Shown here: piece by piece, positions 43,849 through 47,523 of the stretch
Position numbering within the stretch: position 1 is the first letter of the stretch
Layout of the letters: each line of letters opens with the position of its first letter
Source of the DNA: Candidatus Gastranaerophilales bacterium
GTDB taxonomy: Bacteria > Cyanobacteriota > Vampirovibrionia > Gastranaerophilales > Gastranaerophilaceae
Length of the DNA: 64,000 nt
NCBI GenBank assembly: GCA_947630045.1
Contig: CANRGC010000008.1
Coordinates: 1-64,000 of the forward strand
Reading direction: 5' to 3'
Translations under genes and position numbers: made by a program
Notes under the pieces: model-generated
Told to the model about the DNA's origin: nothing
The model's input: only the letters and a program-made list of their open reading frames with translations
Databases searched by the model: none

Positions 43849-44706
43849 ATGAACGCACTAATAGAAGCATTTGACTCAAAAACAAAAGATAAAATTCAAA
43901 AACCCGATTTTGATACGAGAATCGGCAGAGAACTTTTGGCTTTTTATCTTCAAACAAAATTTAAACAGATTATAAATTTCGATAAAAAGTCTGAAAAACA
44001 AATGTTTATCGAAATAAAAGACGATTTTCTCTCAAACTTTTTGGAAAGACTTGTTAACAACCCCAAAAAACATATTTTAATCGGAATAACAGGCGAGTCT
44101 GCCTCGGGAAAGTCCACAATCTGTAAAGAAATTCAAAAAATTGTTGATGAATACAATATGCCCATTTGTCTTTTAAATGCAGACAATTATTTTAAAGACA
44201 TTTCAGATTTAATCAAAAAGTGCGGTTCTTTTGACAAACTTCGTGATATGGGTCATGACGTTGACGCACCCGAAAATTTCAGATTAGATTTATTAAAAGA
44301 ACATGCAATCAAGCTTCAAAACGGGGAAGACGTTAAAATTCCAAAATATTTAACTAACGGCACGGGCGTTTCGGTTTTAAACGCAACATTTGTAAAATCA
44401 AAGAAAATCATCGTTATTGAAGGAATGGCAACCACTTTTGAGGCGGTCAAAGACCTTTTTGATATTAAAGTTTATGTCGAAGTTGATAAAAAAATAAGGC
44501 GCAAACGCTTTTTAGACAGGGCAAAAGAAAGAAATCAAGATATGGAAAATGCCCTTAAACACTGGGAATATGTTTTAAAAGCCGGCGAAAAATATATAAT
44601 ACCCGCAAAGAAAGAGGCTGATATTATTATAGACGGCGGCTGCGATTTAAAATATTTTTCACAAATTATTGAATTTATTAATCATATTACAAATTCATTT
44701 GAATAA
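43849..44706 (+). CDS. Uridine-kinase-like P-loop protein (copy 1)
   Basis: A 285-residue protein. A helical N-terminal region (1-85) precedes a kinase domain with Walker A G-E-S-A-S-G-K-S-T near residue 84, N-A-D-N-Y-F-K-D and V-I-E-G-M. The domain is related to uridine kinase/phosphoribulokinase. The substrate is uncertain, since the G-S-F-D-K-L and D-A-P-E-N-F-R segments differ from Udk. It is a tandem paralog of the next gene and lies 15 bp after rnpA. Confidence 0.8.
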   Translation: MNALIEAFDSKTKDKIQKPDFDTRIGRELLAFYLQTKFKQIINFDKKSEKQMFIEIKDDFLSNFLERLVNNPKKHILIGITGESASGKSTICKEIQKIVDEYNMPICLLNADNYFKDISDLIKKCGSFDKLRDMGHDVDAPENFRLDLLKEHAIKLQNGEDVKIPKYLTNGTGVSVLNATFVKSKKIIVIEGMATTFEAVKDLFDIKVYVEVDKKIRRKRFLDRAKERNQDMENALKHWEYVLKAGEKYIIPAKKEADIIIDGGCDLKYFSQIIEFINHITNSFE

Positions 44707-44720
44707 AGAAAGGCTGTAAA

Positions 44721-45692
44721 ATGCTTATTTCGCCCATTACCGGTAAAAATTACATACCGTTTGGAAGGAACAACACAACAACAATTGACAAAAATAAAAA
44801 TAAAAAGAAGCAGGATATTAATTCGGAGCATATTTATGCAGTAAAATATTATCCTCCGAATGCATATACTGTTATAAAATATGGAGTTGTGCCAATCGGT
44901 CCAAACACCACGCTTAAAAGAAATTTGAACTCTATTTTTACAAAAAATCAACAAGGTGAAAACCCGATAATTTTAAACTTTAACAGCGATGTTTTAGAAA
45001 AAATTGAAAACAAATTAAACCAAACGCCAAAAAGGGGGCTTGTTATAGGAATAACCGGAAAGTCCGCCGCAGGAAAATCAACCCTGACGGAAAAATTTGT
45101 GAACCTTGCAAAACAAAAGGGGGTTGATATTACCGTTGTGAATGGTGATTCTTATTTTAAAGACACGCAAAAACTTGTAAAAGAAGCGGGCAGTTTTGAT
45201 AAACTAATTCAAAACGGTTTTGAATTTGACGCACCTTCAAACTTTAGGCTTGACCTTTTGAAAAAACATTTAAATATGTTATCGGAAGGAAAAGAAATAA
45301 AAACTCCGCACTATGTAGGAAACGGCACAGGCATTTCTAACTTAAACGTTCATCCGATAAGCCCCGCCCGTGTAATAATTCTTGAAGGTTTGCCTTCCAT
45401 GTATCCGAAAGTTAAAGACGCTCTTGATGTTAAAGTTTATATTGACACTAACAATGAAAACGAAAGGCTCAGAAGATATAAAGAGCGTGCGCCTTTCAGA
45501 CACCCCGAACAAACCGAAGCGGACATTTTAAACCAGTATACTTCAACAACAAAGGCTGCGGATAAATATATTGCGCCTCATAAAGGTGAAGCGGACATTG
45601 TTTTAAACAGCGGTGTTCCCTTAAATGAACTTGAAGAATTTTTTGACAAATTGACAGATACAATTGCAAAATCAAAGAAAAGCAACCTTTAA
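44721..45692 (+). CDS. Uridine-kinase-like P-loop protein (copy 2) with N-terminal FG signature
   Basis: A 323-residue paralog of the preceding gene, 14 bp downstream. The N-terminus differs: M-L-I-S-P-I-T-G-K-N-Y-I-P-F-G-R at residues 1-16 matches the putative tag, followed by a basic Lys/Asn stretch. The kinase domain has G-K-S-A-A-G-K-S-T near residue 113, N-G-D-S-Y-F-K-D, then F-D-A-P-S-N-F-R as in copy 1. Thus one copy carries the signature and the other does not. GAAAGG lies before the ATG. Confidence 0.8.
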   Translation: MLISPITGKNYIPFGRNNTTTIDKNKNKKKQDINSEHIYAVKYYPPNAYTVIKYGVVPIGPNTTLKRNLNSIFTKNQQGENPIILNFNSDVLEKIENKLNQTPKRGLVIGITGKSAAGKSTLTEKFVNLAKQKGVDITVVNGDSYFKDTQKLVKEAGSFDKLIQNGFEFDAPSNFRLDLLKKHLNMLSEGKEIKTPHYVGNGTGISNLNVHPISPARVIILEGLPSMYPKVKDALDVKVYIDTNNENERLRRYKERAPFRHPEQTEADILNQYTSTTKAADKYIAPHKGEADIVLNSGVPLNELEEFFDKLTDTIAKSKKSNL

Positions 45693-46239: not shown

Positions 46240-46511
46240 AATACCTTTTTTCTCCATAAGTCCGTAGCCATTATTGGCGTTTATATAACATTTTTAATTA
46301 ATTTTCATTTTAATGGGGAATACAGTTTGGTGATACATTTATATAAAAACATGTAGTATCTTATTATTTCAATTTTATATATTAATGTTACAAAACTTAA
46401 TATTAAAAGAATAAAAAAGCAATTTTTTAAAACAGAAATTTTTTACATGATTGTACGAGAGATTAAAACTTAATAGAGAGACCAACTAAACCGATTGAGG
46501 AGTAGAGAACA
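46240..46511. other. Intergenic region before the MGW pair
   Basis: About 270 AT-rich bases without a supportable ORF. It contains GCCATTATTGGC (a short inverted repeat), a 17-nt sequence TGTTACAAAACTTAATA (46386-46402) identical to one in the agmatinase promoter, and a leader ending in GAGGAG before the ATG at 46512. I recognise no riboswitch. Confidence 0.5.
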
Positions 46512-47000
46512 ATGGGCTGGATAACACTATCCCTGAGAAAACTTGTTCTAACTCAGCGGGTTTCAGAACTGGAACACAGACTGACGAAGCTGAGTCAGGA
46601 GCAACAAACATTATCAAATAGTTCAAGCTATTCCGAACGAGTAATCGGGGTAGAGAAGTCAGAAGCTTATAAGAACATAATCGCAAATTACTCAAACAGT
46701 ATAAATTCAATATCACAAAATTTCCAAAACGGGCCTGTAACGGATATAGGCATAACAGGTCAATACTATACAGATATTCAAAGCGCAGGGCTGGAGTATC
46801 TGTACAACAAAATGAATACCGACTCGATATTCACGGCAAAAGAACAAGCCCTGCAAGACGAAGTAAATCAAAAACAAACTCAACTCGATCTTGAGCAGGA
46901 ACAAATAGAAACACAGCTTGAGGCGGCACGAGCGGAAAAAGAAAAACTCGATGAAGCAATTTCACAAGACATCAAATCAAGCACGATAAGCTTGGTTTAA
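46512..47000 (+). CDS. MGW coiled-coil protein, copy 1
   Basis: A 162-residue protein with no family I recognise. It starts M-G-W-I-T-L-S-L-R-K, continues with a heptad-like helix (R-V-S-E-L-E-H-R-L-T-K-L), a Ser/Asn-rich middle, and a strong Gln/Glu coiled coil (L-E-Q-E-Q-I-E-T-Q-L-E-A-A-R-A-E). There is no signal peptide and no Cys. GAGGAG lies 9 nt before the ATG. It is a tandem duplicate of the next gene. A filament, needle or secreted structural role is conceivable but unsupported. Confidence 0.8.
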   Translation: MGWITLSLRKLVLTQRVSELEHRLTKLSQEQQTLSNSSSYSERVIGVEKSEAYKNIIANYSNSINSISQNFQNGPVTDIGITGQYYTDIQSAGLEYLYNKMNTDSIFTAKEQALQDEVNQKQTQLDLEQEQIETQLEAARAEKEKLDEAISQDIKSSTISLV

Positions 47001-47037
47001 CATAACACCAAAACACTAACACCAAAAGGAGGACACT

Positions 47038-47523
47038 ATGGGCTGGGCAGCATTATCATTAAGAAAAATGACGCTTAAGCAAAGAATCAACAATCTGGAG
47101 CAAAGGCTTACCACTATAAGCCAAGAGCTTCAAACGATGTACGATTCATCATCTTATGCGCAACAAGCGGCAGGGGTAGAACAATCTCAAGCGCTTGCAA
47201 GTATTATGCAGACTTATCAGAATAATACTTCTACAATTACAAACAATTACCAAGGTGCAACAGACTCCGCAGCATTAGCAGAGTACAACACAAAGCTTCA
47301 ACAGGAACAATTGACCTACGCTTACAGTAAAATGGTAAACGATTCTATGTTTACTGCAAAATCTCAAGCAATGCAAGATGCAATTAACCAATCTGAAACA
47401 CAGCTTGAGCTTGAACAAGAACAGGTTGAAACACAGTTGGAAGCAGCAAGAGCTGAATACGAAAGTCTTGATAAAGCGGTAAGCCAAGACATTCAGCAAG
47501 GCGCTATCAAACTTACGGCGTAA
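47038..47523 (+). CDS. MGW coiled-coil protein, copy 2
   Basis: A 161-residue paralog of the preceding gene, 37 bp downstream behind an AAGGAGG. Shared blocks are M-G-W-x-x-L-S-L-R-K at the N-terminus, Q-R-x-x-x-L-E-x-R-L-T, D-S-x-F-T-A-K at about 100, and E-T-Q-L-E-A-A-R-A-E near 138. The middle has diverged. Conservation concentrated in the ends, with nearly equal length, suggests both copies are functional and may pair with each other. Confidence 0.82.
   Translation: MGWAALSLRKMTLKQRINNLEQRLTTISQELQTMYDSSSYAQQAAGVEQSQALASIMQTYQNNTSTITNNYQGATDSAALAEYNTKLQQEQLTYAYSKMVNDSMFTAKSQAMQDAINQSETQLELEQEQVETQLEAARAEYESLDKAVSQDIQQGAIKLTA

Follow-up and report, generated by a model that had tools for sequence, protein, structure and literature searches.

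In cyanobacteria, RpaB binds the HLR1 element, an 18-bp direct repeat with the consensus (G/T)TTACA(T/A)(T/A)NN(G/T)TTACA(T/A)(T/A) (PMC11633204). In photosynthetic cyanobacteria, the RpaB/HLR1 targets are photosystem or HLIP genes. RpaA, RpaB, and NblS were noted earlier in the non-photosynthetic Melainabacteria, where another function was suggested and the targets were not named (PMC3787301, PMC4040986). The second group of described systems relevant here comprises the flagellar and type III axial proteins, such as flagellin, hook-associated proteins, and EspA-like proteins, which carry no Sec signal, have end helices that pair, and combine constant ends with a variable middle. Here, we analyze a 64,000-nucleotide stretch (the window; positions 1 to 64,000 of contig CANRGC010000008.1, assembly GCA_947630045.1) from a Candidatus Gastranaerophilales bacterium, in which two adjacent genes, MGW1 and MGW2, follow an HLR1-like repeat. 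Our preferred reading, to which we give slightly less than an even chance, is that the pair belongs to an RpaB-controlled family of signal-less hairpin proteins that are exported by an FlhA2/FliP2 gate as axial/filament or effector-like components. The features of the locus are as follows.

46387..46404, plus strand: HLR1-like direct repeat GTTACAAAACTTAATATT, with 2 mismatches to KTTACAWWNNKTTACAWW, 125 bp before MGW1
46498..46502, plus strand: Shine-Dalgarno sequence AGGAG of MGW1
46512..47000, plus strand: MGW1, a family member encoding a 162-aa protein predicted to be a helical hairpin
47027..47032, plus strand: Shine-Dalgarno sequence AGGAGG of MGW2
47038..47523, plus strand: MGW2, a paralog encoding a 161-aa protein predicted to be a helical hairpin

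As the first-pass annotation of the window had proposed from the letters alone, the two genes are tandem paralogs; both open reading frames are intact, lie 37 bp apart, and encode proteins that are 54% identical over their full length (E 1.1e-47). The proteins share an MGWxxLSLRK start and an ETQLEAARAE coiled coil. The start had been called invariant, which is correct for the pair and too strong for the relatives, which begin with MSW, MTW, MGY, MGF, or MGL. Neither protein has a signal peptide, as had been noted, or a Cys residue, and Q, N, S, and T together make up 36 to 39% of both. The ribosome sites are indeed strong and surpass most of those in a sample of 265 genes from the window's genome, only 33 of which match at least 5 bases of AGGAGGT. 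The proteins had also been expected to be abundant, but the codon adaptation of MGW1 is the lowest among the 265 genes and that of MGW2 lies at the 16th percentile, which argues against high abundance. A sigma-28-type promoter perceived by eye just before MGW1 was dropped because of its overlap with the ribosome site. The ratios of nonsynonymous to synonymous substitution (dN/dS) among genus orthologs, ranging from 0.06 to 0.24, indicate purifying selection and that both genes are real and conserved. Among 25 related loci from Gastranaerophilales metagenome-assembled genomes and further relatives, the gene adjoins a dNMP-kinase-like gene in 21, and it lies upstream of glcD where the contig is long enough. 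Most species have a single copy at this locus, and the tandem pair is characteristic of the window's genus; in the phylogenetic tree, MGW1 and MGW2 form separate clades, each kept across seven species.

Judged by sequence, the pair belongs to a large unnamed family that has so far been found only in Vampirovibrionia/Melainabacteria and in multiple copies per genome, and we consider the family itself well supported, close to certainty. Its members have constant ends, namely, an MG-x(3-5)-R... start and a C-terminal coiled coil resembling E-Q-L-E-T-Q; the middle between them can be almost absent (109 aa in total) or exceed 400 aa. Most members in the families of genomes designated f9, f14, and f15 are 109 aa long, with the ends almost directly joined. 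Hidden Markov models (HMMs) of the 140- to 200-aa group, based on 12 aligned sequences, were restricted either to the first 42 columns or to the last 53, and each model next picks longer proteins (235 to 577 aa) that start with MG[LMF]AASQAR; reciprocal N- and C-end HMMs of these long proteins rank the window pair first among the ORFs of the window. The N-end HMM test is the more independent of the two because the long proteins were fetched via C-end matches. The short-group profile is positive in 151 of 240 genomes of the class, including 142 from the window's own family, and the profile of the 109-aa form is positive in 131 of 292 genomes of the phylum, all in the window's order. In the window's genome, searches recovered at least nine family members, a lower bound, comprising MGW1, MGW2, and the following (contig and position).

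C3:83427: third paralog, 179 aa, starting with MSWIAMSMRK
C1:91184: family member, 262 aa
C5:57072: family member, 236 aa
C12:9569: family member, 438 aa
C12:29105: family member, 460 aa
C12:12330: family member, 107 aa
C3:68318: weaker family candidate, 143 aa

Some members occur in a cassette (L082:9569-12653, also at L184, L174, and L182) with the order MGxAASQAR protein, MSYKND protein, two small proteins, and MGLLLAIARK hairpin, and some of these loci are without certain pieces. The MSYKND protein has a Gly/Ala-rich hydrophobic middle and a coiled coil at its C terminus.

AlphaFold2 monomer models (mean predicted local distance difference test scores of 83 to 86) bear out the coiled coil that had been proposed, with long two-helix hairpins in which the N- and C-terminal helices are predicted to pair (residues 2 to 70 and 77 to 160 in MGW1 and 2 to 72 and 79 to 157 in MGW2). 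The claim that the proteins belong to no known family also stands, since Pfam, NCBIfam, PHROGs, and PDB gave nothing above the cut-offs, only coiled-coil noise, and the profile searches place them in neither a secretion needle nor a phage structural family. Foldseek against PDB and viral structures gave no match at E ≤ 0.001, and what it lists are generic coiled coils. Matches to influenza HA2 in the sequence search were rejected as heptad similarity. The family resembles the axial proteins in having no Sec signal (and no Cys in the window pair), predicted pairing of the end helices, constant ends with a variable middle, and host genomes with a type III gate. It differs in that it matches none of the Pfam profiles of flagellin, FlgL, or FliD (PF00669, PF07195, and others) and shows no Pfam or PDB sequence match to EspA or the needle (SctF), in that its genes lie outside the export operon, and in that its export is inferred. 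The minimal forms, helical hairpins of about 110 aa, are also reminiscent of the WXG100/LXG proteins of type VII secretion; however, the WXG profile is not matched, and a single member reaches 18.7 bits with LXG, below the cut-off of 26.5.

Upstream of MGW1, conservation is strong and extends to GTTACAAAACTTAATATT at position -125, the first half-site of which is perfect, with its TTACA invariant in ten aligned orthologs. In another genus, MGW1 orthologs carry perfect boxes between -114 and -128 (L016, L108, L111, and L113 to L116). In scans of both strands, 40 of 106 family genes had an upstream box with at most one mismatch, versus 39 of 1,527 others. At the level of clusters at 50% identity, the counts are 23 of 46 versus 84 of 1,634 (p 7e-17), a conservative background because loci fetched by the motif are included. 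The family boxes sit 95 to 140 bp upstream of the genes; in the window's genome, they are perfect at C1:91184, C5:57072, and C12:29105 and have one mismatch at C12:9569 and C3:83427. Perfect sites outnumber those of a reversed-pattern control genome-wide, by 17 versus 1 in the window's genome and 21 versus 1, 11 versus 0, and 21 versus 3 in three others; in two more distant genomes, the excess is not clear. Just downstream of C3:83427 lies a response regulator that is the RpaB equivalog according to its NCBIfam profile (NF045944, 363.7 bits, cut-off of 330). The operator is well supported and very probably genuine, and the family boxes are likely bound by RpaB. The arrangement resembles the cyanobacterial regulon in its 18-bp consensus, its RpaB equivalog, and a box about 100 bp upstream (PMC11633204); unlike in that regulon, the presumed targets encode hairpin and Ser/Asn-rich proteins without a signal, and the host is non-photosynthetic. 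The earlier remark that nothing in the neighborhood explains the pair is true locally and not of the genome, where more members, one of them with rpaB as a neighbor, and a type III export gate are found.

Further perfect boxes in the window's genome (for example, C1:63341, C6:38807, C7:73471, C8:93279, C18:19403, and C25:2523) precede large uncharacterized proteins without a signal, which are candidate members of the RpaB regulon. A signal-like N terminus occurs in 3 of 38 non-family genes behind perfect boxes versus 348 of 1,728 genes, and the N termini of the former are rich in Ser/Thr/Asn/Gln (p 7e-6); examples had been seen before the comparison was made, and it is a lead only.

FlhA2 and FliP2 are present in 57 of 57 tested genomes of the order, whereas the flagellar FlhA1/FliP1 are present in only some. 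The window's genome keeps FlhA2, FliP2, FliQ, FliR, FliE, and FliN-like and FlgE/F/G-like genes, and searches of it found neither flagellin nor FlhA1. The FlhA tree has three groups, which are the flagellar FlhA1, a clade of f10 to f12, and a clade of f1, f6, f7, f9, f14, and f15 (FlhA2b). The long-family profile is positive in 21 of 21 tested genomes of FlhA2b-clade families and in 0 of 39 from families with the sister clade or without FlhA. FlhA in general was rejected as a marker of the family, as f10 to f12 carry FlhA of another clade and no members. The export cluster in the window's genome (C9:50268-56339; L064:10268-16339) reads fliE-fliF-(fliG-like)-fliH-like-flhA2, and Pfam gives no match for the product of the gene in the fliG position. 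Besides the full FlhA, the genome encodes a separate soluble FlhA_C-like protein (C2:61568-62605; L066:9542-10993), with equivalents in the other tested genomes of the order; this protein of 480 to 500 aa matches PF00771 positions 321 to 656, the C-terminal half of FlhA. In f7 genomes (L155 and L156), its gene lies beside fliJ-fliK-flgD-flgE-like genes.

In the proposed explanation, RpaB probably controls transcription through the HLR1-type operator upstream of MGW1, and the MGW proteins, lacking a signal peptide, would most likely leave the cell via the flagellum-derived FlhA2/FliP2 gate. Outside the cell, they may serve as axial/filament or effector-like components, in which, much like in flagellar axial proteins, the two constant ends would form a coiled coil with each other and leave the variable middle exposed. 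Type III export of the family is a reasonable inference that could go either way, and the hetero-filament of MGW1 and MGW2 suggested in the first-pass annotation is no more than a possibility. Several observations weigh against this explanation. The box of MGW1 has 2 mismatches, a level that about 10% of other genes reach, and the comparison of the short- and long-group profiles aligns the C-end only. The co-occurrence with FlhA2b tracks host phylogeny, so it does not count as independent events and may be simple vertical inheritance. Family genes are scattered, with an adjacent member at only 2 of 20 FlhA_C-like loci; no family gene lies in the export-gate clusters inspected, and the gate operons of the window's genome have no good HLR1 box.

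The missing link to export operons also favors a different explanation, that the proteins are cytoplasmic coiled-coil scaffolds, chaperones, or envelope-stress proteins under RpaB with no tie to type III export. The box enrichment does not require export, and this explanation accords with the frequency of hairpins among cytoplasmic coiled-coil proteins and the generic Foldseek matches. We regard it as rather unlikely, as a middle of 0 to more than 400 aa between constant ends is unusual for chaperones, the presence of the family follows the FlhA2b clade, and the other perfect-box genes likewise encode signal-less proteins with Ser/Thr/Asn/Gln-rich N termini. The conserved cassette and the hydrophobic glycine-rich stretches and C-terminal coiled coil of the MSYKND protein would suit a needle-tip/translocon-like complex of this protein and the long members, with the short MGW proteins as accessory or regulatory subunits, but Pfam, NCBIfam, and PHROGs link the MSYKND protein to no translocator family and the cassette is without MGW genes, which makes such a complex improbable. 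That AT-rich intergenic sequence, and not a binding site, accounts for the operator signal is very improbable. Mild enrichment of control motifs at 2 mismatches speaks for composition. At 0 to 1 mismatch, where a single reversed half-site control gave a weakly positive result, neither half-site shuffling nor a gap of 1 or 3 produced comparable enrichment, and in four genomes of the window's family, genome-wide counts are at least 7-fold over the reversed-pattern control. Phage- or plasmid-borne structural proteins, for which no supporting point was found, are extremely improbable, since PHROGs is empty for the core family, searches of PHROGs and viral contigs gave only chance-level matches and, at the sensitivity used, turned up no relatives in IMG/VR, and the chromosomal synteny from the dNMP-kinase-like gene to glcD is kept in most related species.

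A large unnamed family now has a regulatory setting and an export hypothesis that can be checked, and the HLR1 sites found here are candidate targets for the RpaB of Melainabacteria. What has been reported as "incomplete flagella" in gut members may be a distinct type III apparatus that has its own FlhA/FliP and possibly its own substrates. More broadly and more tentatively, RpaB and HLR1 may drive a signal-less secretome, led by the hairpin family, through a non-flagellar type III system formerly read as a broken flagellum. Two puzzles of the Melainabacteria, RpaB without photosynthesis and the incomplete flagella, thereby become testable. Elsewhere in the window, two adjacent uridine-kinase-like genes lie on the same strand (43849-44706 and 44721-45692), the second with an N-terminal extension, and just one such gene was recognized at the corresponding place in related loci.
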